The translations under genes and the position numbers were made by a program. A stretch of DNA of 11,044 nucleotides from Spirochaetaceae bacterium. GTDB lineage: Bacteria; Spirochaetota; Spirochaetia; SZUA-6; Bin103. Of the stretch, positions 1-11,044 are shown in pieces. The notes below the pieces were generated by a model. The model ran no database searches and was not told the origin of the DNA. It worked only from the letters and a program-made list of their open reading frames with translations. The DNA is taken from NCBI GenBank assembly GCA_026710565.1, contig JAPOQV010000140.1, positions 1 to 11,044 on the forward strand, given 5' to 3'. Each line of letters starts with the position of its first letter. The first letter of the stretch is position 1.

Positions 1-1070
1 AGGCCGTACCCGTAGAACAGCAGGGTCGCGATAACCGACTGCAGGAGGTAGTTGGTCAGCGCCATCCGGCCCATGGCGGCCAGCGGCCGCAGCAGGCGCT
101 GCCAGCCGGGACGCTGCCAGAGCAGCCCGATGCCGGAGCCGTAGGCCATCGCCAGGAGCGGGCCCGCGACCGTTCCGTTGACCCACACGCACATCAGCGC
201 ACTCAGCGTCGGCAGCAGAGCGGCACCCGTTGCCGACAGGGCCGCCACGGGCAGACCGATCGCCAGGCCCCAGGCGAGCACGCGCCTCAGCAGAGCGCGG
301 TGATCCTCGGTGCCGAGGGTGAGGTGGCGGCGACCGGCGGCCAGTCCCAGGACGAACATGGCCAGCACCGTCGGCGCGAGGAAGAGCTGGATCCACGCGT
401 TGCGGCTGTAGTTCTCCACACGGGTCGCCGCCATGCGCGCGAACGCCGGTTCGAGATAGGCAGCCGTCGTGGTCCGAGCCTCGGTCCGGAACTGCTCCGC
501 CGTCTCTCGATCGCTGGCGGCGATCTCCGCCGCGCCCTCGGGGGCCATCCGCCCCAGCGCCAGCGCCCCGAACATCAGCACCGCGGCCGCCGCCGGGACG
601 ATCAGCAGCCACTTCACCCAGCGGCGCAGGATCTCCGGCCGCGCGCGGCGGAGGGCGAGCAACGCCAGCCCGAGGATGGCGTAGAGGAGGAGGATGTCCC
701 CCTCCGACAGCAGCACGATGTGCGCGACCCCGATCAGGCCCAGGATCGCCGACCGGCGCAGGTACAGCCGGGGAAAGCCGGCGGCGACGCCGCGTTCCTC
801 GGCGCGCAGGAACTGCGTGGCGAAGCCCCATCCGAACAGGAACGAGAACAGGGTGAAGAACTTGGCCTGCGCCAGGGCGAACACGCCCGCGGCGACCAGT
901 CGATCGAGCGGCGGCCCTTCGTACCCGAAGCCACCAAGGCTCCCTGGAGCCTTGAACCACATGATGTTGACGAACAGGATCCCGCACAGCGCGAACCCGC
1001 GCAGTACATCGACGACCTCAATCCGCTCCGCCTCACCGACCGGACCGAGCGCGGCGGATCGCTGGTTCAT
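1..1070 (-). CDS. DUF418 / YeiB-type multi-pass membrane protein (C-terminus cut by window start)
   Basis: The minus strand is open from an ATG at 1070 to the window edge: 356 whole codons with no stop. After a short hydrophilic start comes the family signature 'RIEVVDVLRGFALCGILFVNI' in substance (residues 16-36, LRGFA core at 23-27). Next are 'KFFTLFSFLFGWG' (70-82), 'SEGDILLLYAILG' (122-134), several hydrophobic helices, and a C-terminal part with 'AAMGRMALTNYLLQS' (331-345), typical of the DUF418 domain. Known members (E. coli YeiB) are inner-membrane proteins of poorly defined function, possibly transport. Family length is near 380-400 residues, so only the last few dozen residues are missing. 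An AGGAG ribosome site sits 7 bases before the ATG. It follows hicA by 76 bases on the same strand but has no functional link to it. Identity as DUF418 is secure; function is unknown. Confidence 0.9.
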   Translation of the reverse strand, partial: MNQRSAALGPVGEAERIEVVDVLRGFALCGILFVNIMWFKAPGSLGGFGYEGPPLDRLVAAGVFALAQAKFFTLFSFLFGWGFATQFLRAEERGVAAGFPRLYLRRSAILGLIGVAHIVLLSEGDILLLYAILGLALLALRRARPEILRRWVKWLLIVPAAAAVLMFGALALGRMAPEGAAEIAASDRETAEQFRTEARTTTAAYLEPAFARMAATRVENYSRNAWIQLFLAPTVLAMFVLGLAAGRRHLTLGTEDHRALLRRVLAWGLAIGLPVAALSATGAALLPTLSALMCVWVNGTVAGPLLAMAYGSGIGLLWQRPGWQRLLRPLAAMGRMALTNYLLQSVIATLLFYGYG

Positions 1071-1146
1071 CGTCGGCTCCTCAGGCTCACTACCGCGCCT
1101 GCGAAGTCTGCTGGACGGCGCCGCGGGCTCGGATCCCTCGCATGTC

Positions 1147-1374
1147 TCAAACCAGTTTCTGTAGCTCTTCTGGAGTCAGCCTCGCCTGCTTGAGAATGTG
1201 AGCAAGCGTGGAGCGCTTGATCGGACGATGGGCCGGTACGATGATCTTCAGCGTCTCGGTCGATGTTCGTTTCTGTAGTCTGATGTGGGAACCGCGTTGC
1301 CGCACGACGATCCAGCCGTCGCGTCTGAGAGCACGAACGACGCGCTCGAAATTGAGGACAGGGACCCGACTCAA
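1147..1374 (-). CDS. hicA: HicA-family mRNA interferase toxin
   Basis: A 75-residue basic protein with the double-stranded-RNA-binding-like fold of HicA toxins. Visible features are the N-terminal 'LNFERVVRALRRDGW' helix, 'VVRQRGSHIRL' (residues 23-33) with the family's conserved catalytic His at position 30, and 'IIVPAHRPIKRSTLAHIL' (44-61) leading into the last helix. Family knowledge: HicA cleaves mRNA and tmRNA through this His and is held inactive by HicB. The start is a TTG at 1374 that overlaps the hicB stop as TTGA, so translation is probably coupled, keeping toxin made only after antitoxin. No ATG lies at the expected N-terminus, and this start gives the normal family length. All key residues are present, so the toxin looks intact. 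Local base composition is much lower in G+C than in the catabolic genes downstream. Confidence 0.9.
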   Translation of the reverse strand: MSRVPVLNFERVVRALRRDGWIVVRQRGSHIRLQKRTSTETLKIIVPAHRPIKRSTLAHILKQARLTPEELQKLV

Positions 1375-1574
1375 ACCGCGACTTCTACCAGCTCCGCTCT
1401 CTCGCTGAAATCCCCGTCGTCGTCCACAGCCTCCAGGTACAGTTCAATGGCTTCGCGAATATTCGCCACGGCTTCCTCTCTGGTATCGCCTTCGCTGATA
1501 CAGCCGGGAAGGGAGGGAACCACTGCCGTGAAGCCACCGTCTTCACTCGGCTCAAGAACAACTGTCAGGTTCAT
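1371..1574 (-). CDS. hicB: HicB-family antitoxin (short form, no evident DNA-binding tail)
   Basis: A 67-residue acidic protein matching the HicB N-terminal domain (UPF0150, a partial RNase H-like fold). It opens with a beta strand 'MNLTVVLEP', then 'EDGGFTAVVPSLPGCISEGDT' in substance (residues 11-31, PSLPGC at 20-25) and the helix 'REEAVANIREAIELYLEA' (32-49). It should bind and neutralise HicA, whose gene it overlaps by four bases (TTGA). The ATG at 1574 is preferred over the upstream GTG at 1604 because homologues begin with this strand and a GAGGA site lies six bases before it (1581-1585). Many HicB proteins carry a C-terminal ribbon-helix-helix or HTH domain for autoregulation; here only about 18 acidic residues follow the helix. 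Autoregulation would therefore need another route. Confidence 0.9.
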   Translation of the reverse strand: MNLTVVLEPSEDGGFTAVVPSLPGCISEGDTREEAVANIREAIELYLEAVDDDGDFSERAELVEVAV

Positions 1575-1580
1575 GCAAGA

Positions 1581-1585
1581 TCCTC
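1581..1585 (-). promoter_or_regulatory. Ribosome binding site of hicB
   Basis: GAGGA on the minus strand, six bases before the ATG at 1574. It supports that ATG rather than the upstream in-frame GTG at 1604. Confidence 0.6.
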
Positions 1586-1588
1586 GTT

Positions 1589-1605
1589 GGTGCGAGCTCC
1601 GCACC
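1589..1605. promoter_or_regulatory. Small inverted repeat in the hicBA leader (candidate operator)
   Basis: GGTGCG (1589-1594) and CGCACC (1600-1605) are perfect 6-bp arms around AGCTC, 15 bases upstream of the hicB ATG. Its position suits an operator or leader hairpin for hicBA autoregulation. A 6-bp GC-rich repeat can arise by chance, so this is only a candidate. Confidence 0.3.
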
Positions 1606-1619
1606 TCGGTTCAAGTCAC

Positions 1620-1648
1620 AGCCTACCGCGAACTCAGTCAGAAGTCGA
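1620..1648 (-). promoter_or_regulatory. Possible hicBA promoter
   Basis: On the minus strand, TCGACT (1648-1643, 4 of 6 to TTGACA) and TAGGCT (1625-1620, 3 of 6 to TATAAT) are separated by 17 bases, placing a start about 40 bases before the hicB ATG. Matches are weak, and the call rests on spacing and position. Confidence 0.25.
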
Positions 1649-1767
1649 TTCGGAATCACGGTGCGAGTGTCACCTCGACGAGCTCATCGCGGCCTTACAC
1701 GCATGCCAAGCACGACGGCACGAACGCCGCCGCCTCGCGTGTCCAGGAGCATCATTTCGCGTCGGTG

Positions 1768-1828
1768 AGCGTGAATGACACCCAATTATCGCCATGTATT
1801 CACTCCTTCTTGCCTCAATGGCGTGAAT
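1768..1828. repeat. Upstream three-site array of the 9-mer GRMGTGAAT before fic
   Basis: Three copies of one 9-mer lie in alternating orientation: AGCGTGAAT at 1768-1776 (plus), GGAGTGAAT at 1798-1806 (minus, read as ATTCACTCC), and GGCGTGAAT at 1820-1828 (plus). The last two form an inverted repeat with a 13-base centre. The array ends 19 bases before the fic ATG at 1848, so a protein bound here would block initiation or sit on the promoter. The same arrangement recurs immediately after fic (2741-2800) with nearly the same spacing (starts 30 and 22 bases apart here, 29 and 22 there). No seventh copy was found in the window by eye. Confidence 0.8.
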
Positions 1829-1847
1829 TTTGTACCATGTGGAACCA

Positions 1848-2747
1848 ATGGCGACCTCGCAGCCGATCAGAGCGCGCATCCGGGATCTCAGACGAGAATA
1901 CGAGGCGTTGCGGCTCGGCAAGGAGTCGCTGCTGGCGATGATCGATGACGTCGAGATACCTGAAGGCGTGTACAACTCGAACGCCATCGAGAACTCGACG
2001 CTCACGCTCGACGAGACCGAGAGGATCCTGCTCCAGCAGGAGCTCTCCCGGAGCGTGACCGTACGGGAGGTCTTCGAAGCCAGGAATCTCGCGCGAGTCG
2101 TCGAGTATACCCGCAACAGGACAGGCGCCGGCGAGCTGACGCGCGACCTGATTCTCCTGTTGCATCAGATGCTGCTGGGCGGCATAGACGATGCCATCGC
2201 CGGCCGCTTCCGCCAGACCGGGGAGTACGTGCGCGTCGGCACTCACATCGCTCCGGCGCCCGAGCGAGTGGAGCCCCTGATGGCATCGGCATTGCTCGAC
2301 TATTCCAGCGATCTCGACTCCTACTTCCTGGACAAGGTCGCCCTGTTTCACCTGCAGTTCGAGACCATCCATCCGTTCTGCGACGGCAACGGGCGCATGG
2401 GCCGGGTCATCATCAACTTTCAGCTCTACCGGCTCGGGTTGCCCTCCGTCATCATCCGCGACAAGGAGAAAGACCTGTACTATCAGGCGTTCCGCGACTA
2501 CGCCGAACGGAACCGGAGCCAGACCATGGAGCGTATCCTCGCCCTGGCTCTCCTGGAGTCCCTGCACAAGAGGCTGAGTTACCTCAGGGGTGACGTGATC
2601 GTCAGACTGTCCGAATACATCAGACACCGTGGCCTGTCGGCGCCGGCCGTCACCAACGCCGCCCGGCGCCAGACCATTCCAGCGTTCCGCGAGAAGGGAG
2701 TGTGGAAGATCGGAGCGCACGGCACGACGTCCGACCAGCAGGCGTGA
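1848..2747 (+). CDS. fic: Fic-domain protein (AMPylase type, class II self-inhibited) with C-terminal HTH-like region
   Basis: A 299-residue Fic protein predicted to transfer AMP (or another nucleotide moiety) from a nucleotide onto a target protein hydroxyl. The complete active-site motif HPFCDGNGRMGR is at residues 175-186, with catalytic His175. An inhibitory-helix motif of the (S/T)xxxE(G/N) type, SNAIEN, is at 44-49, which makes it a class II Fic with the inhibitory helix N-terminal in the same chain. Residues 252-289, ending 'NAARRQTIPAFREKGVWKIG', look like an excisionase/MerR-style winged helix-turn-helix, suggesting DNA binding. The ATG at 1848 is chosen because homologues start close to this point; an in-frame TTG (1830) and GTG (1839) would add 6 or 3 residues. 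No good Shine-Dalgarno is visible. It is divergent from hicBA and convergent with the amidohydrolase gene. Its stop codon lies inside the first downstream GRMGTGAAT copy. G+C is lower than in the catabolic genes. Function as toxin, regulator or stress enzyme is open. Confidence 0.88.
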   Translation: MATSQPIRARIRDLRREYEALRLGKESLLAMIDDVEIPEGVYNSNAIENSTLTLDETERILLQQELSRSVTVREVFEARNLARVVEYTRNRTGAGELTRDLILLLHQMLLGGIDDAIAGRFRQTGEYVRVGTHIAPAPERVEPLMASALLDYSSDLDSYFLDKVALFHLQFETIHPFCDGNGRMGRVIINFQLYRLGLPSVIIRDKEKDLYYQAFRDYAERNRSQTMERILALALLESLHKRLSYLRGDVIVRLSEYIRHRGLSAPAVTNAARRQTIPAFREKGVWKIGAHGTTSDQQA

Positions 2748-2800
2748 ATGGTACCCTTTTAGCCCTGTTATTCACGCCTCTTTGCCACGAAGGAGTGAAT
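2741..2800. repeat. Downstream three-site array of the 9-mer GRMGTGAAT after fic
   Basis: GGCGTGAAT at 2741-2749 (plus), GGCGTGAAT at 2770-2778 (minus, read as ATTCACGCC) and GGAGTGAAT at 2792-2800 (plus). The first copy contains the fic TGA stop (2745-2747). The block 2770-2800 matches 1798-1828 at 24 of 31 positions read directly and at 25 of 31 read as reverse complement, because each block is itself an imperfect palindrome. The first two copies could pair in RNA as a 9-bp stem, but the loop is 20 bases and no T-tract follows, so it does not look like an intrinsic terminator. Confidence 0.8.
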
Positions 2801-2850
2801 TCTCGGTCCGCGCCGATACCTCGGAGAGATGCCGACCTGCACACCTTGCT

Positions 2851-3825
2851 TCAGTCGATCCGGAACAGCCGGCAGGCGTTGCCGGAGTAGATGCGCCGCA
2901 GGTCCTCGGCGGGGAGTCCGAGCTCCTCCAGGGAGTCGATCAGGACCTGGATCTCCACCCACGGGTGGTCGCTCGCGAACACCAGGCGGTCGGCGCCGGC
3001 GAGCTCGTAGGCGACGCGGACGGCCGGCGGCCACGGCGAGGCGGTGTCGAGATGGACCCGGCCGTACAGCTCGGTCGGCGTCTGCGAGATGCGCTCGATG
3101 CCGCGCTTCATCACCTCGGTCTGGTTGCGGATGCGGCCCCACAGGTAGGGGAGCACGCCGCCGCAGTGCGGCTGCACCACCTGCAGGCCGGGGTGGCGCT
3201 CCAGGCCCCCGCCGAGCACCAGCCGCAGCGCCGCCAGGCTGTGGTCGACCATCAGGCCCACCATCGTGGTCATCGAGTGGTCGCTCGTCTCGGCGGCCCA
3301 GGGCGGCACGCACGGATGCAGGACCACCGGCACGCCGAGCTCCGCGATGCGGGCGTAGACCGGCTCCAGCGAATCGTCGTCCACGGGACCGGTGCCCACG
3401 TGCGAGTAGAGCATGACCCCGCGCAGGTCCAGCTCGCCGGCCGCGCGGTCCAGCTCCGCGACCGCCGCGTCCGGGCTCTGCCATGGCAGGCACGCCAGCC
3501 CCACCGGGCGCTGCCGGTGGCGGGCGCACGCCTCGGCCAGCTCGTCGTTGCACACGCGCGCGGCTTCCACGGCCAGCTCCGCCTCCAGCAGCTCGGGGCC
3601 GGGCATGTTCACGCTGACCACGCTCACGTCGATGCCGGCGGCATCCATGTCGCGCAGCTTGCGCGCCACGCTGTAGTCCTCCAGGTCGAGCCGGAACGAC
3701 TGCATGTCGCCGTAGGCGACGGTGTAGCGCCCCGCCCCGCCCGTGGTCGCGGGCGATCCGGGGTTGCGCGTCAGCGCCTCGGCATAGCCGGCGGGAAACA
3801 GGTGGCTCTGGCAGTCGACCTTCAT
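2851..3825 (-). CDS. Amidohydrolase_2 (ACMSD-like) family metal-dependent hydrolase/decarboxylase
   Basis: A 324-residue TIM-barrel enzyme of the amidohydrolase_2 family, which includes aminocarboxymuconate-semialdehyde decarboxylase. Visible ligand positions are the N-terminal DCQSH (4-8), His170 in 'VVLHP', His220 in 'QPHCGG' and Asp286 in 'FASDHPW'. The usual first-strand HxH metal motif reads Q6-S-H8 here, so one metal ligand is Gln; the other four expected positions are kept. The start is the ATG at 3825, where family homology begins. The frame is open further upstream to 4143, but that part is a shadow of the preceding gene. No Shine-Dalgarno is visible, and the ATG overlaps the stop of a 41-codon frame (3822-3947). 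It is the last gene of the minus-strand cluster and converges on fic. The substrate is unknown; catabolism of an imported compound is inferred from context. Confidence 0.85.
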   Translation of the reverse strand: MKVDCQSHLFPAGYAEALTRNPGSPATTGGAGRYTVAYGDMQSFRLDLEDYSVARKLRDMDAAGIDVSVVSVNMPGPELLEAELAVEAARVCNDELAEACARHRQRPVGLACLPWQSPDAAVAELDRAAGELDLRGVMLYSHVGTGPVDDDSLEPVYARIAELGVPVVLHPCVPPWAAETSDHSMTTMVGLMVDHSLAALRLVLGGGLERHPGLQVVQPHCGGVLPYLWGRIRNQTEVMKRGIERISQTPTELYGRVHLDTASPWPPAVRVAYELAGADRLVFASDHPWVEIQVLIDSLEELGLPAEDLRRIYSGNACRLFRID

Positions 3826-3947
3826 GGCGGGCGCAGCCTGCGGTGCCGGCGGGCGGGCGTCAACGCGGTGCGCAGGCTGCCGATGAGGGCATCGAGGCCC
3901 ATGACCCGTGCCGCGCCCACGATGGTACGCCCGCTCCGCGCGCTCAT
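3822..3947 (-). other. Possible small ORF overlapping the amidohydrolase start (ATGA)
   Basis: An ATG at 3947 opens a 41-codon frame, beginning MSARSGRTIVGAARVMGLDA, whose TGA at 3824-3822 overlaps the amidohydrolase ATG at 3825. It fills most of the 133-base gap after the glycosidase-like gene. It has no clear ribosome site and resembles no family I know. It could be a coupling leader or a chance frame in GC-rich DNA. The lack of a ribosome site for the amidohydrolase is the main reason to record it. Confidence 0.2.
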
Positions 3948-3958
3948 CCGCGTGTCTG

Positions 3959-5521
3959 CTATCCGATGCGGAACGAGTAGAGGCTCGTGTGGCGGCTGAA
4001 GAAGCGCAGCTTCGCGCCGCCGGCAACCACCTGCGGCGGCAGCTCCGTCCGTCCCGACCAGGACAGAACGTGGGCGGTCTCGTCGCCCCTGAACGTGTCG
4101 CATTCGTCGCGGCCGAAGCCCGGCACCACGTCGTCCTCGGCATCCGTCAGCTCCGCCTCCAGGTACCCGTTCGCGGCGCTCACGGCGTTGACCACCACCC
4201 GCGTTCCCTGGCTCACGAACGGCCGCGTTACCAGGACCCCGTCGCGGACGGTCGAGTCGATCGAGACGAACCCCTCCGGGCGCAGGGTCGCCAGCCCGAG
4301 CGCGGTCTCGCCGCCCGCGAACCCGGCCTTGGCCTCCGGCACGTCCAGCCCTTCGATCTCGCCGTGCGTCCACCAGTCGTGGTGCACGTTGGCGCCGCCG
4401 TAATAGATGCGGATCTCGTCGTCCAGGAACAGCGGCGTGTTGCAGATCTCAACCATGTAGCAGTCCCAGTTGCCCTCCGCGCTCCGCTCCAGGAACGGCG
4501 AGCCGCGGCTCACGTGGTTCCAGCGGTAGCCGTCGCGGCTGTAGACCAGACGGACGTCCTTGGTGTTGTGCGTGCGCTGGAACACGTCCAGAAACCCGAC
4601 CCACAGCTCGCCCATGCGGAACCGGGTGAGGCCGTAGAACTCGTCGTCCAGGTTGTCGACGACATCGTCCGGGACGATGGTCTGGTCCAGTGCGGGCCAG
4701 TCGAGAATGTCCCTGCTGTTGGTGCTGAAGATCCGCCGCTTGGTCATCCCGAAGCCGTCTCCGGGGTAGTAGGGATCGCCCCATCCGCCGCCGGTGGGCA
4801 GCTTGGGGTTGCCCTCGCGGGTGCACATGGCGATGGAGCGGGTGTCCAGGTAGTACTGGCCGGTCACCGTGTCCGGGTAGAGGATGATCACGTCCCCCAG
4901 CGCGCGCCCGCGGATCTGGCCGAAGCTGACCGGCCGGTCGTATGCCTGCCACGAGCGGCCGTCCGCCGAGTACACGGCGCGGATGCTCGAGTCCTCGATG
5001 TTGGTCATTTCGTGCCAGAAGATGCTCTTGTAGCGCTGCGCCGGATCGGCTTCGAGCGGATCGTCGATGATCGTGAAGGCATGCACCTTGCCGAACGTCT
5101 CGTCACCGAGGCAGATGTTGGTCCTGCGGCCGTCCACCGTACGGTAGTCGAGCTCCGGCTTGGTCCAGATCACGCCGTCCTCGGACTCCGCGTACAGCAT
5201 GCGGTGTTGGCTGGAGTCATGAACGCGCGAGTCGATCGGACCGAGCGTGTCCCGCCGCGCCTTCAGCGCACGCTGGTAGTCGAGCCCGGTGTCCTCATAC
5301 CAGCACTTGTAGCGCCCCTCCCGTTCGTCGTGGCGCACGTTCCAGCAGTTGGTGCGGAAGTGCGGCGTGACCTCCCACGGCTTGTCCTTGCGGATCAGCG
5401 GGTTGGCGGGGTGGCGCCGGGGCCGGTGCACGGTGCGGGTCACGAAGTTGACCATCTCGATCATGTGGTTGTCGAAGAAGAGCTGCGGCTGTCGGCCGAT
5501 GTTGATCGGTGTGCGAGTCAT
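3959..5521 (-). CDS. Glycosidase-like beta-propeller protein (GH32/GH43-type fold), function unproven
   Basis: A 520-residue protein with no signal peptide, so probably cytoplasmic. The N-terminus 'QPQLFFDNHMIEM' (11-23) followed by 'HPANPLIRKDKPWE' (37-50) is typical of a group of uncharacterised propeller proteins often labelled glycosyl hydrolase. Repeated blade signatures of the S-x-DG-x-x-W type occur at 113-119 (SEDGVIW), 185-191 (SADGRSW) and 328-334 (SRDGYRW). 'RIYYGGANVHHDW' (371-383) resembles the last blade of GH43/GH32-like enzymes. The last 110 or so residues look like a beta-sandwich. I cannot point to a confirmed catalytic triad. It starts 26 bases after the OppC stop and has an excellent AAAGGAGG ribosome site (5529-5536) seven bases before the ATG, so it belongs to the transporter operon. 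A role in processing an imported glycoside is inferred. Confidence 0.7.
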   Translation of the reverse strand: MTRTPINIGRQPQLFFDNHMIEMVNFVTRTVHRPRRHPANPLIRKDKPWEVTPHFRTNCWNVRHDEREGRYKCWYEDTGLDYQRALKARRDTLGPIDSRVHDSSQHRMLYAESEDGVIWTKPELDYRTVDGRRTNICLGDETFGKVHAFTIIDDPLEADPAQRYKSIFWHEMTNIEDSSIRAVYSADGRSWQAYDRPVSFGQIRGRALGDVIILYPDTVTGQYYLDTRSIAMCTREGNPKLPTGGGWGDPYYPGDGFGMTKRRIFSTNSRDILDWPALDQTIVPDDVVDNLDDEFYGLTRFRMGELWVGFLDVFQRTHNTKDVRLVYSRDGYRWNHVSRGSPFLERSAEGNWDCYMVEICNTPLFLDDEIRIYYGGANVHHDWWTHGEIEGLDVPEAKAGFAGGETALGLATLRPEGFVSIDSTVRDGVLVTRPFVSQGTRVVVNAVSAANGYLEAELTDAEDDVVPGFGRDECDTFRGDETAHVLSWSGRTELPPQVVAGGAKLRFFSRHTSLYSFRIG

Positions 5522-5547
5522 TCGGGGGCCTCCTTTACTTGGCTCCT

Positions 5548-6672
5548 TTACTTGTAGGGATCGGCCGCGTCACGCAGGCCGTCGCCGAGGGCGTTGAACG
5601 CCAGCACGCTGACGATGACGAAGGCTGCAGGAATCAGCAGCCAGGGAAACAGCGCCACCGCGGACACGTTCTGGGCGTCCTGCAGCAGCGTTCCCCAGCT
5701 CACCGCGGGCGGCCGCAAACCGAGGCCGAGGAAGCTCAGCGCGGTCTCGCCCAGGATCATGAACGGAATCGAGAGGGTGAGGTGCACGATCAGGTAGCTC
5801 ATGAACGCGGGCAACAGGTGCTTGGCGATGATCCCCGCGTCGCCGGTTCCCGCGATCCGCGCCGCCATGACGTAGTCCTCCTCGCGCAGCTCCAGGAGCT
5901 TGCCGCGCACGACGCGGGCCAGGCCGCACCAGCCGCGGATCGCAAGGATGATGGTGATGAAGAAATAGACCTGGACGACGCTCCACTCGCGCGGCAGCGA
6001 CGCGGCCAGCGCCATCCACAGCGGTATGGTCGGTATGGAGAGCAGGAACTCGATGATCCGCTGGATGATCATGTCCGGCGCGCGGCCGAAGTACCCGGAG
6101 ATCCCGCCCAGGATCGTCCCCAGGACGAAGCTCAGGACCACCCCGACCAGCCCCACGGAAAGAGAGACGCGCGCGGCGTGGATGTTGCGCGAGAACAGGT
6201 CGCGGCCGAGCGCGTCGGTCCCGAACAGGAACAGGACACCCGGCTCGTCGACGCCGAACAGGTGCAGGTCGGTGTCGAACAGGCCCCAGAACCGGTACCG
6301 GTCACCGCGAGTGAGCAACCGCAGCGGATAGCGCTGTGAGGTATCGGCGACTATCTCGCGCCGGAACGTCTCCCGATTCAACACGGACGTGAGCCCGTAG
6401 ACGAACGGCCGCGCGTGAAAGCGGCCGTCCGCATCGATGAATCGCGGTCCCTGTGGTGCAGCGTTGATGAAATCGCGGAATCGTTGGTGGGCGCCGTACG
6501 GGGCCAGGAATCCGGCGAAGATCGCCGTCAGGTAAAACAGGGCCAGCACCGCGCCTCCCCCCAGTGCCAGCTTGTGCCTGCGGAACTTGCGTCCCATGAG
6601 GCGCCACTGCGAGGCGAGGTGATACTCCTCGGTCGGGTCGCTTGACCGCGCCGCCAGGGTCGGTTCACGCAT
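5548..6672 (-). CDS. OppC/DppC-type ABC transporter permease with long periplasmic insertion
   Basis: A 374-residue inner-membrane permease of the peptide/nickel/oligosaccharide family (BPD_transp_1). The N-terminal OppC_N-type region leads into TM1 (about 36-57). The usual motif 'FGTDALGRDLFSR' is at 150-162, and five hydrophobic segments follow. The EAA loop that contacts the ATPase reads 'EEDYVMAARIAGTGDAG' (264-280). 'ETALSFLGLGLRPPAVSWG' (309-327) and the terminal 'DGLRDAADPYK' are also family marks. Between TM1 and GTDALGRD lies an extra region of roughly 85-90 residues (61-148), far longer than in classical DppC. Such inserts are known in permeases paired with very long family-5 binding proteins. 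The ATG at 6672 follows the OppB stop by 7 bases with no clear ribosome site, so translation is probably coupled. Confidence 0.93.
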   Translation of the reverse strand: MREPTLAARSSDPTEEYHLASQWRLMGRKFRRHKLALGGGAVLALFYLTAIFAGFLAPYGAHQRFRDFINAAPQGPRFIDADGRFHARPFVYGLTSVLNRETFRREIVADTSQRYPLRLLTRGDRYRFWGLFDTDLHLFGVDEPGVLFLFGTDALGRDLFSRNIHAARVSLSVGLVGVVLSFVLGTILGGISGYFGRAPDMIIQRIIEFLLSIPTIPLWMALAASLPREWSVVQVYFFITIILAIRGWCGLARVVRGKLLELREEDYVMAARIAGTGDAGIIAKHLLPAFMSYLIVHLTLSIPFMILGETALSFLGLGLRPPAVSWGTLLQDAQNVSAVALFPWLLIPAAFVIVSVLAFNALGDGLRDAADPYK

Positions 6673-6679
6673 GGCGCGC

Positions 6680-7666
6680 TCAGCCGGCCATCCTGATCCG
6701 GGGGTCCACGGCGACCAGCAGGATGTCGGACAGGAAGGTGCCGAGGAGCGTGAGCAGCGCCGTGACCATCACCAGCGAGCCGGCCAGAAACATGTCCTGC
6801 GCTACCAGCGCGGCCAGCAGCAGCGGGCCGATGGTCGGCAGGCTGAGGACGATCGCCGTGATCACCTGGCCGGAGAATATCTCCGGCAGGACCCAGCCGA
6901 CCGTGCTGATGACGGGATTGAGCGCGACCCGAACGGGATACCGGAACAACAGTCTTGACTCGGCGAGCCCCTTGGCGCGCGCGGTGATCACATACTGCCG
7001 GGACAGCTCGTCGAGCAGCGAGCTGCGCAGGACTCGAATGAGCTGTGCCGTGCCGGCCGTGCCGATGACGACGATCGGCACCGGCAGGTGTCCGAGCATG
7101 TCGAGCACCTTCGCGAACGACCACGGCTGGTCGACGTACTCGATCGAGAACAGGCCGCCGATGCTGAAGCCGAGATAGCGGTTGGCCAGGAACATCAGGA
7201 TCAGCGCAAGCAGAAAGTTCGGGGTCGCCATCCCGATGAACCCGAGCGTCGTCACGGCGTAGTCGGTCAGCGAATACTGGTGGGTGGCCGAGTACACGCC
7301 GATCGGAATCGCCACCGCATAGGTGAACAGCAGCGTGACGACGGCGATGATGACGGCATACGGAAGCCGGTCCGCCAGCAGCCTGGACACCGGCTGTCGC
7401 CACTGCAGCGACATCCCCAGGTCGCCGCTCGCAATGCGACCCAGCCAGCGCAGGTACTGCCGGTGCATCGGCAGGTCCAGGCCGTAGATCCGCCGCAACT
7501 GCTCGGTCTGTTCCTGATCGAAGAACACGCCCTGTGCTTCCAGTCGGGTCACGTAGTGGCTGAGGAAGTCTCCGGGCGGGAGCTGAATGATGACGAATAC
7601 CGCGACGGTGAGCATCGCCAGCAGCAGGAGCATGAACAGGAAACGCCGAGCGATGTACGAGCCCAT
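6680..7666 (-). CDS. OppB/DppB-type ABC transporter permease
   Basis: A 328-residue inner-membrane permease that pairs with the OppC-type protein downstream. It begins 'MGSYIARRFLFMLLLL' with TM1 at about 9-28, then the OppB hallmark 'LPPGDF' (29-34) and 'IYGLDLP' (60-66), a 'GDLGMSL' turn (81-87), further TM segments, the EAA loop at 219-251 containing 'YVITARAKGL' (225-234), and the closing 'DILLVAVDPRIRMAG' (314-328). The ATG at 7666 is preferred over an in-frame upstream start at 7720 because the family begins here and a GGAGG lies four bases before it. An 18-residue extension from 7720 would run through the GC-rich hairpin and has no family similarity. It is the second gene of the cluster, 78 bases after the binding-protein gene. 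Confidence 0.93.
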   Translation of the reverse strand: MGSYIARRFLFMLLLLAMLTVAVFVIIQLPPGDFLSHYVTRLEAQGVFFDQEQTEQLRRIYGLDLPMHRQYLRWLGRIASGDLGMSLQWRQPVSRLLADRLPYAVIIAVVTLLFTYAVAIPIGVYSATHQYSLTDYAVTTLGFIGMATPNFLLALILMFLANRYLGFSIGGLFSIEYVDQPWSFAKVLDMLGHLPVPIVVIGTAGTAQLIRVLRSSLLDELSRQYVITARAKGLAESRLLFRYPVRVALNPVISTVGWVLPEIFSGQVITAIVLSLPTIGPLLLAALVAQDMFLAGSLVMVTALLTLLGTFLSDILLVAVDPRIRMAG

Positions 7667-7670
7667 CGAG

Positions 7671-7675
7671 CCTCC
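7671..7675 (-). promoter_or_regulatory. Ribosome binding site of the OppB-type gene
   Basis: GGAGG on the minus strand, four bases before the ATG at 7666; it decides this start over the upstream one at 7720. It lies 12 bases past the foot of the 7688-7718 hairpin, so the hairpin should not hide it. Confidence 0.6.
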
Positions 7676-7687
7676 GGTTGACAGACA

Positions 7688-7718
7688 GCGGAGCCCCGCC
7701 GCTCGGGCGGGGCTCCGC
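7688..7718 (-). promoter_or_regulatory. Strong intercistronic hairpin between binding-protein and permease genes
   Basis: GCGGAGCCCCGCC (7688-7700) and GGCGGGGCTCCGC (7706-7718) form a perfect 13-bp stem around a 5-base loop. It starts 26 bases after the binding-protein stop and ends 21 bases before the OppB ATG. The bases after the stem in the transcript direction (TGTCTGTC) are not a T-run, so a full intrinsic terminator is unlikely. The usual role of such a structure at this place is to protect the 3' end of the abundant binding-protein message or to cause partial termination, giving more binding protein than permease. Confidence 0.75.
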
Positions 7719-7744
7719 ACGCACCCGTTATCGAGCGGTGTGCG

Positions 7745-9742
7745 TCAGTTGTTCCAGTACCACTCCTGCGGCCGCTGCTGGTTGCCGAACCCGTAGGCAA
7801 GCACTCCGGAGTTGCTCCAGAACCGATCGGCGATGTTGACCAGGTCGTTGCTGATCAGCACCGGGCTGGCGACCATGCCGACCGTGCCGATGGACAGCAG
7901 GTCGCTGGCGTTGCGGTCGAACACCTTGGTCAGCTCGCGGTCGAGCGTCGCCTGGTCCATGGTCGACGCCGAGTTGATGATGTCGTTGTACTCCTTCACC
8001 CAGTCCGGCGGCTCCTCGCCCTTCTCGCCATCGGAAACCAGCCAGTCGTGCCACAGGGGCGCCCACCACTGGGGCCGCCGCCACAGCGCCCGGTAGAGGA
8101 TCTGCATCACCGGCAGACCGTGGTTGTCCGGGCGGATCGCGATCTGGCTGTCGTTTGCGTAGATGGTCTCGTAAAAGGCGTTCTTGGTGGTCATGTTGAG
8201 ATCGGCGCGCACCCCGATCTCCTTCCAGTGCGCGACCACCAGCTCGACGATCGGTGCGCTCTGCATCTCGCCCGGGGTGACCACCTCGACGGCCAGCACG
8301 TCGCCGTCCGGGCGCAGCCGCCACTCGCGGTCGCCGTCCCAGCCCAGGCCCATCTCGTCCAGGAGCCGGTTCGCCTCGTCGAGGTCGCGGGTCGCGTACG
8401 CGGTGGCCCACCCTTCCTTGTAGTAGGACACCGGCGGCGCCACCGTGTTCTGGCGCGGCACGGCTTCGCCGAAGTAGATCGTGTCATTGATGTCGTCGCG
8501 GTCTATGGCCAGCGACAGGGCCCTCCGGAAGCGAACGTCGGACAGGATCTCGGCCACCACCGGATCGGCGCGATAGGTGAGGTTGGTCCAGATGGTCGCT
8601 TCGGCCGCATTGGCGCCGGCGGCGAGGCGGACCTGGTACTTGCCGTTCGCCTGCTCCTCCAGCAGCAGCGGGTAGTGCTCGAGGGTCAGCTCGCCGTTGT
8701 CCCAGTCCACGTCGCCGGCGATGATCTTGAGCTTCACGGTCTCCGGATCCTGCAGCACCGTGGTGATCACCGAGTCGATGTAGGGGAGTTGATTGCCTGC
8801 CGGATCGATGTGGTGATAGTAGGGATTGCGCTCCCAGACCACGGCGCCGGTCGGCGAGTCCTTGTACCGCCACGGGCCGGTCGACGCGATCTCGAGATTC
8901 AGTTCGTGCGGGAACTGCTGGCTGGGCCGCCACGGGTCCCTGACCAGGCCGCTGACCAGCAGGGCCCAGCTATCGAACCCGTGCTCCTTGGCCAGCTCGT
9001 TCGCGTCCTCGTTGTAGTCGATGTGGTACTTCTTGATGGTCTCCCGGTCGAGCAGGCCGGCGCGGCGTGTTCCGTAGAGGGAGAGGTGCACGTTCCAGAA
9101 CGGCGCGGCGAAGCGGAACTGGACCGTGTGGTCGTCGATCTTGTGCACGGTCATGGGCTCGCCCGCCACGGTGAAGTTGCCCATGAACTTCTCGATGTCG
9201 TCGTTCTGGGCGATGTCCTCCCACCAGAACAGCCAGTCGTCGGCCGTGTGCTCGGCGCCATTGGAGAGCTTCAGGCCCTCTCTCAGCGTGAGGGTCAGCG
9301 CCATTCCGTCGCTGGCGTACCGGAAGTCCTGTACGACCCAGGGCTGCAGGTCCGTGGTACCGCGGTTCCATTCGATCGCGCCGTGATGGACGATCGCGCC
9401 GAGCGGTCCACCCTCGGTATCGCTCTTGATGAGCCGCAACGGCCGGTCGCTGTACGTGCCGATCGAGTCGTACGGCTTCTGCACAAGTGGTTCGGCGGGC
9501 AGCCGCTGCTCGATGGGCGGCAACTCTCCCGCGGCCACCATGGCGCTCAGCATCGGCGACTCGTTGAACGACGAGATCGTGTTTCCCGTCTCGCTCTGGT
9601 ACTGCGATAGCGTCGCCCATTCCTGCGAATCACCGAGCGTCGGCGCGACATCCATCGTCGGCATCTGGGCAAAACCGCCCGGGACGATGAGCACGGTCAG
9701 TCCGATCACCGATCCGAGCACGCGAAGCGTTCGTCGAAGCAT
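7745..9742 (-). CDS. Family-5 extracellular solute-binding protein (long subtype)
   Basis: A 665-residue periplasmic substrate-binding protein (SBP_bac_5) for the OppBC-type permeases. A Sec signal peptide occupies residues 1-26 (basic MLRRTLR, hydrophobic core, GGFAQ near the cleavage site) and has no lipobox Cys. The family region is seen as 'WVVQDFRYASDG' (135-146), 'TLREGLKLSNG' (152-162) and 'YIDSVITTVLQDPETVKLKI' in the middle. A pre-domain segment with 'SPMLSAMVAAGELPP' (62-76) and 'RLPAEPL' marks a long subtype seen in oligosaccharide or complex-solute uptake systems; classical OppA/DppA is near 530 residues. The ATG at 9742 is chosen because the signal peptide begins here and AAGGAGG lies five bases before it. 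The frame stays open upstream to 9907 but encodes nothing recognisable there. The ligand cannot be read from sequence. Confidence 0.92.
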   Translation of the reverse strand: MLRRTLRVLGSVIGLTVLIVPGGFAQMPTMDVAPTLGDSQEWATLSQYQSETGNTISSFNESPMLSAMVAAGELPPIEQRLPAEPLVQKPYDSIGTYSDRPLRLIKSDTEGGPLGAIVHHGAIEWNRGTTDLQPWVVQDFRYASDGMALTLTLREGLKLSNGAEHTADDWLFWWEDIAQNDDIEKFMGNFTVAGEPMTVHKIDDHTVQFRFAAPFWNVHLSLYGTRRAGLLDRETIKKYHIDYNEDANELAKEHGFDSWALLVSGLVRDPWRPSQQFPHELNLEIASTGPWRYKDSPTGAVVWERNPYYHHIDPAGNQLPYIDSVITTVLQDPETVKLKIIAGDVDWDNGELTLEHYPLLLEEQANGKYQVRLAAGANAAEATIWTNLTYRADPVVAEILSDVRFRRALSLAIDRDDINDTIYFGEAVPRQNTVAPPVSYYKEGWATAYATRDLDEANRLLDEMGLGWDGDREWRLRPDGDVLAVEVVTPGEMQSAPIVELVVAHWKEIGVRADLNMTTKNAFYETIYANDSQIAIRPDNHGLPVMQILYRALWRRPQWWAPLWHDWLVSDGEKGEEPPDWVKEYNDIINSASTMDQATLDRELTKVFDRNASDLLSIGTVGMVASPVLISNDLVNIADRFWSNSGVLAYGFGNQQRPQEWYWNN

Positions 9743-9747
9743 CAGTG

Positions 9748-9754
9748 CCTCCTT
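9748..9754 (-). promoter_or_regulatory. Ribosome binding site of the solute-binding protein gene
   Basis: AAGGAGG on the minus strand, five bases before the ATG at 9742. It settles the start at the signal peptide rather than the in-frame upstream start at 9907. Confidence 0.75.
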
Positions 9755-9779
9755 GCGCCACCTGGCGTCTTGACCGGCC

Positions 9780-9808
9780 AGCCTGCTCCCGTCCCGGAAC
9801 GGTGTCAA
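9780..9808 (-). promoter_or_regulatory. Candidate sigma-70 promoter of the transporter cluster
   Basis: On the minus strand a perfect TTGACA (9808-9803) is followed after 17 bases by CAGGCT (9785-9780), a poor -10 match. This would put the transcript start near 9773, about 30 bases before the binding-protein ATG. The -35 is strong and the -10 weak, which suits an activated or regulated promoter. The possible hicBA -10 (TAGGCT) shares the AGGCT core. Confidence 0.5.
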
Positions 9809-9828
9809 GCAAAACCGGCTACGGGAGC
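9785..9828. promoter_or_regulatory. Inverted repeat straddling the -35 of the transporter promoter (candidate operator)
   Basis: GCTCCCGT (9785-9792) and ACGGGAGC (9821-9828) are perfect 8-bp arms, with CCGG at 9794-9797 and 9815-9818 nested inside. The TTGACA lies between the arms, and one arm reaches the -10. A dimeric repressor bound to both arms would cover the promoter. No regulator gene is present in the window. Confidence 0.45.
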
Positions 9829-9860
9829 GGCCTCCTCGTTCGCCCTGTCGGCACCGGCGT

Positions 9861-9914
9861 GCTGTGAGTGTGTCGGACATGGCGCGTGAGCGGCATATCC
9901 GACACACTCATAGC
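9861..9914. promoter_or_regulatory. Long inverted repeat upstream of the M81 gene (operator or leader hairpin)
   Basis: TGAGTGTGTCGGA (9865-9877) and TCCGACACACTCA (9898-9910) are perfect 13-bp arms around 20 bases. The pairing extends outward by GCT/AGC (9861-9863 with 9912-9914) after one mismatch, and inward with 6 of the next 8 positions matching. The right end is 11 bases before the M81 ATG, and the left end is 52 bases upstream of the opposing -35. It may be a shared operator for both divergent units or, in the M81 transcript, a hairpin next to the ribosome site. Confidence 0.65.
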
Positions 9915-9925
9915 GGACGGTCGAG

Positions 9926-11044
9926 ATGAGTGATCGCAGGTTCCGGATCGGCGTCGGCGGGATGATCCAGGAGTCGCACTCCTTCTCGCCGGCCAGCTCG
10001 TCGCTGGAACGATTCCACTCCGGGCTCTACCTGCGCGGACCCGAGGTCTTCGACACGCTCGGGAGCTGCCGGCACGAGGTGGCGGGAGCCCTGCGCGAGC
10101 TGCGCGAGGCGGCCGTGCCGCTGTTCTTCGCCTTCGCGGCCTCCTCGGGCCGGCCGCTGGACGATCCCACCTACGGCTGCCTGCAGGACGAGCTGCTCGA
10201 CGCCATCCGCGGCGCCGGCCCGCTCGACGGCCTGCTGCTGGTCACGCACGGGGCGATGGTGACCGAGGCTGACGACGACGGCACCGGCCGCCTGTACGCG
10301 GCGGTCCGCGAGCTGGTCGGCCCGGACTTGCCGATCGTGGCCACCATCGACTGCCACGCCAACGTCACCCGGCGCATGGTCGACCTGACCGACGCGATGG
10401 TCTTCTACCACACGCAGCCGCACGTCGATCACGTCGAGACCGGTGCCCTCGGCGCGCGCATTCTCACGGGCATCCTGAACGGGGGGCCGCGGCCGGCCAA
10501 GGCATTCCGCTCCCTGCCGATGGTGCTGCCGGGCGAGAACGGCAACACCACCGGCGGAGCGTTCGAGCCGGTGATGCGCGAGGTGGTGGCCGCCGAGGAA
10601 CGGCCCGGCGTCCTGTCGGCGGGCGCATGCGCGGTGCAGCCGTGGATGGACCTGGCCGAGTACGGCTGCACGGTGATCGTCTACGCCGACGAGCAGCCGC
10701 TCGCCGACCGCGAGGCGGACCGGCTGGCCGGGATCTTCTGGGACGCCCGGCACACGTTCATCCCGGACCTGACCGCCATCGACGACGCGATCGCGCTGGC
10801 GGCCGCGCCCGGCGACGGCATGTTCGTGTTCGGCGACAGCGCCGACGCGCCGGGCTCGGGCGCCACCGGCGACAGCACGGCGCTGCTGCGGGCGCTGCTC
10901 GACGCCGGCTTCAGGCGGCCGGCGCTCGTCAATATCGTCGACGCCGCGGCCGTCGATGCCGCCGAAGCGGCCGGCGTCGGCGCCGAGGTCCGCCTGTCGA
11001 TCGGCGCCTCGCTCGACCGGACGTTCTACCGGCCGGTGCCGATC
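9926..11044 (+). CDS. M81-family metallopeptidase, MlrC-type (C-terminus cut by window end)
   Basis: The frame is open from the ATG at 9926 to the window end: 373 codons, no stop. Family members (MlrC, the last enzyme of microcystin linear-peptide breakdown, and many uncharacterised relatives) are near 490-510 residues. The N-terminal domain has 'GGMIQESHSFSP' (11-22), 'LLLVTHGAMVTE' (103-114), the zinc motif 'DCHAN' (Asp142, His144) and 'QPHVDHVETG' (164-173, His166), matching the Asp/His/His zinc ligands known in MlrC. The MlrC_C domain begins around 'FGDSADAPGSGATGDST' (312-328). The ribosome site is weak (GGACGGTCGAG before the ATG). It is divergent from the transporter cluster. M81 genes are often found beside Opp-type transporters, so a shared imported substrate is plausible but unproven. 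Confidence 0.9.
   Translation, partial: MSDRRFRIGVGGMIQESHSFSPASSSLERFHSGLYLRGPEVFDTLGSCRHEVAGALRELREAAVPLFFAFAASSGRPLDDPTYGCLQDELLDAIRGAGPLDGLLLVTHGAMVTEADDDGTGRLYAAVRELVGPDLPIVATIDCHANVTRRMVDLTDAMVFYHTQPHVDHVETGALGARILTGILNGGPRPAKAFRSLPMVLPGENGNTTGGAFEPVMREVVAAEERPGVLSAGACAVQPWMDLAEYGCTVIVYADEQPLADREADRLAGIFWDARHTFIPDLTAIDDAIALAAAPGDGMFVFGDSADAPGSGATGDSTALLRALLDAGFRRPALVNIVDAAAVDAAEAAGVGAEVRLSIGASLDRTFYRPVPI

Follow-up and report, generated by a model that had tools for sequence, protein, structure and literature searches.

Background

Class II proteins account for 80% of the Fic family, and nearly nothing is known about their functions or the control of their activity, according to PMC9755527. 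The closest described system, from the same source, is CccR of Yersinia pseudotuberculosis, a class II Fic protein with a C-terminal helix-turn-helix (HTH), which acts as an autorepressor and is also an effector of the type VI secretion system that AMPylates FtsZ; its operator, AGATAATCAT-N26-ATGATAATCT, consists of 10-bp inverted repeats placed 26 bp apart near the -35 and -10 boxes. In this paper, we describe a fic gene on an 11,044-nt contig of a Spirochaetaceae bacterium (GenBank assembly GCA_026710565.1, contig JAPOQV010000140.1, positions 1 to 11,044; hereafter the window), which is bracketed by two arrays of three alternating GTGAAT sites. Judged from its conservation across homologous loci, the upstream array is a conserved operator, and the downstream array is taken, by analogy with fic-less arrays elsewhere, for the scar left when a neighbouring second fic gene was lost.

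The fic gene of the window shares with CccR a class II inhibitory motif that precedes the catalytic one and a widely spaced inverted repeat in the -35/-10 region, and its product may, by structure prediction, also have a C-terminal DNA-binding domain; by analogy, this fic gene probably works as CccR does. The CccR operator is a single pair, whereas the operator described here has at least three alternating GTGAAT sites, with gaps of 20 or 21 and of 19 nt. The original prediction, made from the letters of the window alone, knew of no described Fic system with this layout, which needs qualifying, since class II Fic autorepression through a widely spaced inverted repeat has been published for CccR; the literature searches made listed nothing on the present operator, PMC9755527 being the only paper among the results that seemed pertinent. 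New to us are the multi-site alternating operator, its occurrence in several phyla and the existence of solo arrays.

In a search of the PDB, 7xux_A (380 aa), which may be CccR, matched at profile positions 75-199 only, and the structures of SoFic (Shewanella oneidensis) and BT_2513 matched in the Fic region; against the SoFic equivalog model the window protein scores 37 bits versus a cut-off of 550, and we know of no such operator array for SoFic or BT_2513. The top NCBIfam model was mobile mystery protein B (TIGR02613), at 39 bits below its cut-off of 124.4. Its partner, mobile mystery protein A, is known as a constant neighbour of protein B, whereas the window fic has no neighbour that is conserved beyond close relatives.

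Results and discussion

Two arrays of similar sequence bracket fic

Both arrays have the form GTGAAT-N20/21-ATTCAC-N19-GTGAAT, with an outer gap of 21 nt in the upstream and 20 nt in the downstream array. The upstream half-sites, defined by sequence and by their equivalent positions in homologues, lie at 1771..1776 (+), 1798..1803 (-, thus ATTCAC on the plus strand) and 1823..1828 (+), and the array ends 19 bases before the fic ATG at 1848. The downstream half-sites lie at 2744..2749 (+), 2770..2775 (-) and 2795..2800 (+); the fic stop codon TGA (2745-2747) falls within the first of them, and the third is not followed by a -10 box (score 1 of 6). These coordinates bear out the first observation on this DNA, namely six near-identical 9-mers around fic, starting at 1768 (+), 1798 (-) and 1820 (+) and at 2741 (+), 2770 (-) and 2792 (+), in the same alternating orientation with start spacings of 30/22 and 29/22, the upstream array 19 bases before the ATG and the downstream one beginning in the stop codon region. 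The first upstream 9-mer, AGCGTGAAT, has one mismatch to GRMGTGAAT, and what is conserved at the core of the arrays is the hexamer GTGAAT, which occurs six times in the 11 kb, counting both strands, and each time inside the arrays.

That the six-site geometry is very unlikely by chance, as had been proposed, was also borne out: none of 3000 dinucleotide shuffles contained a single triplet of this geometry, and the window contains two. The bare counts, however, are weak, as 9 matches to the 9-mer (one mismatch allowed) compare with 6.4 +/- 2.7 expected, and at least six hexamers occur in 4.5% of shuffles. The spacers of the two arrays are alike as well, with 14 identities in the outer spacer (P 0.001) and 12 of 19 in the inner one (P 0.0005), or about 63% identity overall; the arrays are therefore direct repeats of about 57 bp, probably of one common origin. 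Outside the arrays, the flanking sequences show no significant similarity to each other (P 0.31 after and 0.054 before).

The Fic protein

The fic gene (1848..2747, +) encodes 299 aa and matches PF02661 at 1.5e-20; its start was set from the alignment at the conserved MATSQP, and an alternative in-frame TTG at 1830 would give a product of 305 aa. The sequence SNAIEN (1977..1994, +) fits the class II inhibitory motif (S/T)xxxE(G/N), as worded in PMC9755527, and the Fic catalytic motif is HPFCDGNGRMGR (2370..2405, +), recognized from sequence and alignment. Across the alignment of homologues S44, N45, A46, I47 and E48 are invariant and N49 is conserved in at least 90%, and in the catalytic motif H175, D179, G180, N181, G182, R183 and R186 are invariant. 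Both motifs are thus present, as in class II Fic proteins of the CccR kind, and the window protein is a stand-alone class II Fic. A separate antitoxin gene conserved beside fic, the two-gene layout of class I, was not found among the 74 fic loci described below. When shared neighbouring open reading frames (ORFs) of at least 50 aa were surveyed in these loci, whose flanks are uneven in length, the top groups reached seven loci, all of them Latescibacterota, and among the 15 largest groups listed no gene was common to fic neighbourhoods outside close relatives.

Residues ~250-290 (2595..2717, +) form a predicted winged helix-turn-helix. AlphaFold2 gives a beta-alpha-alpha-beta-beta block with a pLDDT of 83-92 in a whole model that is poor elsewhere (mean 68), and of 92-94, except at its end, when the C-terminal piece is modelled alone; the profile matches of this part to MerR/excisionase are weak, and Foldseek returned no match with the C-terminal piece at E < 0.001. 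On the modelled fold, this winged helix is the probable DNA reader.

Close relatives of the protein (P0001-P0032, of which P0005 is the window's own protein) are 82-94% identical. The additional N-terminal residues of P0002 (MNATRFLPPIHSFLTKWREF) fit GTGAAT-N21-ATTCAC-N19-GTGAAT, which, as a hand back-translation from protein, is a hint only. Genome searches by phylum at E 1e-60 gave 1 of 247 genomes in Acidobacteriota, 3 of 18 in Nitrospinota and 3 of 247 in the phylum of G012 (a Syntrophaceae metagenome-assembled genome, MAG), the best match being 76% identical; in Gemmatimonadota there were 0 fic matches in 200 genomes, an empty answer that carries no weight.

The upstream array is conserved with its predicted promoter

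Fic loci were collected by protein similarity from GTDB contigs and whole genomes, except L233, which was found via its array; loci with a tblastn score below 200 bits were left out and 19 duplicates (L161-L176, L180, L206 and L246) were dropped. With at most one mismatch allowed in the core pair and at most two in the outer site, the triplet lies upstream of fic in 66 of the 73 loci with upstream DNA (74 loci in all, the window included), which belong to several phyla, and all 18 half-site bases are exact in 47 loci. The 9-mer being absent beside homologues, which had been named as a refuting outcome, is therefore not what the flanks show. The seven loci without the triplet are L006, L192, L211, L212, L213, L219 and L245.

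The array stands in a fixed register with a predicted promoter. The inner gap is 19 nt in 48 loci and 18 nt in 18, and the outer gap is 20 or 21 nt; the -35 box starts 6 nt past ATTCAC in all 48 loci with the 19-nt gap, and 7 nt past it in 17 of the 18 with the 18-nt gap. Exact TTGACA and TATAAT boxes occur in 14 of the 66 loci. In the window, the predicted promoter is by consensus match TTGCCT-N17-TACCAT, with the -35 box at 1810..1815 (+), at the 6-nt distance from ATTCAC that homologues with a 19-nt inner gap have, and the -10 box at 1833..1838 (+); the inverted repeat lies over the predicted promoter of the window's own fic.

The half-sites also change together. In a motif-free scan, all three positions were found to be of the same type, GTGAAT, GTTAAT or GTGAAA, e.g. 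CGTTAAT three times in L012 and L200, and CGTGAAA three times in L215, L218, L237, L238 and L244; at least 5 of 50 shuffles matched the result for L006, L192, L212, L213, L219, L242, L243 and L245. On a tree of the 66 Fic proteins, many forks of which are weak, the operator type requires 10 changes, compared with a mean of 22.6 when the labels are shuffled. Proteins with a GTGAAA operator and an 18-nt gap mostly carry FLEK at the place where the others carry FREK. Because 5 of the 19 rows of the GTGAAA-operator clade are labelled GTGAAT, no strict code between protein and operator is claimed.

Conservation in 66 of 73 loci, the fixed promoter register and the co-changing half-sites together uphold, for the upstream array, the proposal that the repeats are an operator, and on this comparative evidence the upstream array is a conserved operator. 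Two loci that lack the triplet, L212 and L213, have a different inverted pair (GGTGAAT ... TTTTCACC) in its place. Repeats of the GTGAATAGTGAA type in intergenic DNA around fic in L247 probably bear no relation to the operator.

Specificity of the pattern

In 13 genomes of homologues, exact triplets were found in 11, and all 16 matches were fic-upstream arrays, compared with none for the reversed control; among 41 further genomes the single match was upstream of a 57% identical fic. The 9-mer being common across the genome, the other outcome named as refuting, did not occur in the 13 homologue genomes searched. A regulon of other genes was considered and rejected: 40 of 47 genomes had a match to the core pattern (the reversed control gave one match in the 47), and matches away from fic were confined to G275 and G229, where they are solo arrays, and to the relatives G043 and G048, which share a nearly identical sequence with a smaller gap. 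Use by phages was likewise rejected, as the 13 matching IMG/VR stretches, six of which are one phage sequence, are taken as chance: none has TTGACA inside, and no fic was found beside any of them (tblastn, E 1e-10). An ATTCAC ... GTGAAT pair with a 17-nt gap, away from fic, is common to two Latescibacterota genomes (L283 and L284).

Arrays without fic

A triplet within 300 nt past the fic stop (two mismatches allowed) was found in one of the 72 loci with downstream DNA, namely the window. Arrays without a fic gene of their own, here called solo arrays, occur elsewhere. In the phylum of the Daviesbacteria MAG G009, 18 of 379 genomes have exact triplets, and in that of the Latescibacterota MAG G001, 11 of 64 have them; 22 of these 29 genomes have a triplet beside a fic that the genome searches had found, and solo triplets are present in nine (G044, G045, G055, G060, G144, G192, G229, G275 and G383). 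G229 and G275 have a normal fic elsewhere in addition, and the solo triplet of G383 lies about 200 nt before a fic with its own GTGAAA operator. The solo arrays represent about eight events, those of G044/G045 and of G055/G060 probably being shared.

The DNA next to several solo arrays suggests that a gene was lost. G044 and G045 have, 2 or 3 bases past the array, the flank that lies beyond fic in sister genomes, with fic itself missing. In G192 (L290) it is followed by 4 bases and then by DNA encoding EKGVWKIG, an eight-residue Fic C-terminal remnant (E 0.94 alone), and in G229 (L299) a Fic C-terminal remnant of 29 residues, NAALRQSIPAFRERGVWRIA (E 2e-8), lies about 1.25 kb from the array. 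The synteny of G055 and G060 is weaker: one side matches DNA that, in relatives with fic, is at least 1.2 kb away from the array, and on the opposite side of G055 some 17 nt of sequence, roughly 27 nt beyond the array, look by eye like what follows fic in G059. All 10 solo arrays, the downstream array of the window included, have a -10 score of 1-3 of 6, which is what random positions give (mean 2.3), compared with 3-6 (median 5) in the 38 fic arrays with an exact core; the exact triplet search requires the third half-site, and does not require the absence of a -10 box.

The proposed explanation and its alternatives

The reading we prefer, with a probability of roughly 0.7, is that a stand-alone class II Fic has its auto-operator in the upstream array and that the downstream array is a solo copy left by a lost adjacent fic. 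The C-terminal winged helix of Fic would read GTGAAT, at least two subunits would sit on the inverted pair ATTCAC-N19-GTGAAT straddling the -35 box, further subunits would reach over the outer GTGAAT, and RNA polymerase would be excluded until Fic is consumed or altered. By analogy with CccR, autorepression of fic by its own product is likely. The downstream array would have been the operator of a second, neighbouring fic, whose -10 box and coding region were lost; it is read as a scar because solo arrays elsewhere lack a -10 box, are followed by Fic remnants or stand between shared flanks without fic, mainly in G044, G045, G192 and G229. Two points weigh against it: no credible remnant of a second fic was found after the downstream array of the window, and the scar reading gives no account of why the conserved sequence ends at the last half-site in every solo array. 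Continued selection on solo half-sites after the loss of fic was considered and set aside, as the exact search biases such evidence.

It had also been proposed that complexes bound to both arrays could loop the gene. The downstream array would then be a working second operator, and Fic complexes meeting from the two arrays would deepen repression or cap transcription at the 3' end. All 18 downstream half-site bases are intact while the spacers are only about 63% identical to those upstream. Several loci (L001, L003, L186, L250 and L252) have four or five sites upstream of fic, with the alternating phase kept, and such arrays, for example those of L001, L003 and L250, suggest cooperative binding. 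As a general design, however, looping is not supported, with a downstream triplet at one of 72 loci; and intact half-sites are no proof of use by a local fic, because exact arrays also stand in four Latescibacterota genomes without fic at E 1e-50, albeit from an exact, and thus biased, search. For the window itself we consider looping unlikely.

A less probable alternative gives the array a double role, as operator and as recombination edge, the last half-site being the exact point at which fic bodies come, go and are exchanged. If so, arrays bound by Fic or forming hairpins might steer breakage, and solo arrays would mark past fic genes and serve as docking places for new Fic or other genes, such as the AAA_15 and DUF3226 genes in G060 or the MerR-HTH protein and DUF4325-like gene in G229.

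Slightly more doubtful still is a mobile fic unit with the arrays as its ends, recombination at the array edge and solo arrays as empty sites. Matching direct repeats surround the window fic, conservation in the fic-less arrays of nine other genomes stops at the last GTGAAT, G044 and G045 keep an array between shared flanks, the solo array of G045 has a TnpB/OrfB_IS605-like gene about 330 nt away, and a Fic-domain gene lies within about 3 kb of 5 of the 10 solo arrays (the window, G275 at 3 kb, G383, G144 and G192). A single-gene cassette with matching ends, as first suggested, is nevertheless not supported as a general rule, as most copies of fic have no array on the second side (71 of 72), and a weaker form lives on through the fic-less arrays. 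Moreover, no gene is common beside fic outside close relatives, the losses do not share a right end (it falls within fic in L290 and L299, but past the stop in L332), and fic had no plasmid match at 1e-20 and, among the 80 of 116 retained from viral contigs, no relative above 37% identity.

Finally, an RNA hairpin terminator between convergent genes, with no tie to Fic binding, is highly improbable: a stem can form between the first two sites of the downstream array (-19 kcal/mol, z -2.6), the array sits between fic and a convergent amidohydrolase gene, and L251 has a strong hairpin with ATTCAC/GTGAAT after fic (z -5.2), but folding of the second and third sites is at the level of shuffled sequence (z -0.4), no U-run follows, the operator spacing and similar spacers point to an operator origin, and the other 71 loci lack a downstream triplet.

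Neighbouring genes and related observations

A hicA/hicB-like toxin-antitoxin pair (PF07927, PF15919) lies divergent from fic in the window (1147-1604, -). In L251 (Nitrospinota) three half-sites at 2377-2465 follow fic in a geometry unlike that of the operator, and two of these form part of a long, perfect hairpin; they are not included in the survey of downstream triplets given above. The solo array of L290 lies in a cluster of unlike Fic genes, after a RhuM-Fic fusion gene (486-1478) and before a Fic_N-Fic gene (1867-2997). Directly after the solo array of G060 (L312), at the place expected for fic, are an AAA_15/AAA_21 ATPase gene (401-1519, -) and a DUF3226 gene (3-398, -); in L001, DNA 77% similar to this ATPase stretch precedes the array and its fic. 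Between the solo array and the Fic remnant of L299, at 1724-2768, are genes for a MerR-HTH protein and for a DUF4325-like protein, the latter at 22.2 bits (0.00011), below its cut-off of 23. The TnpB-like gene of G045 (L306), at 29-1174, matches Cas12f1-like_TNB and OrfB_IS605.

Conclusions

The operator is so specific that, in most of the cases tried, the DNA pattern by itself points to fic or to a place that has lost it. By record titles, the Fic lineage that bears it is large, including Latescibacterota, candidate-phyla bacteria, Elusimicrobiota, Nitrospinota and others. As half-site, spacer and protein lineage change together, they offer natural pairs with which DNA reading by the domain can be tested, and from the solo arrays earlier losses of Fic genes can be counted.
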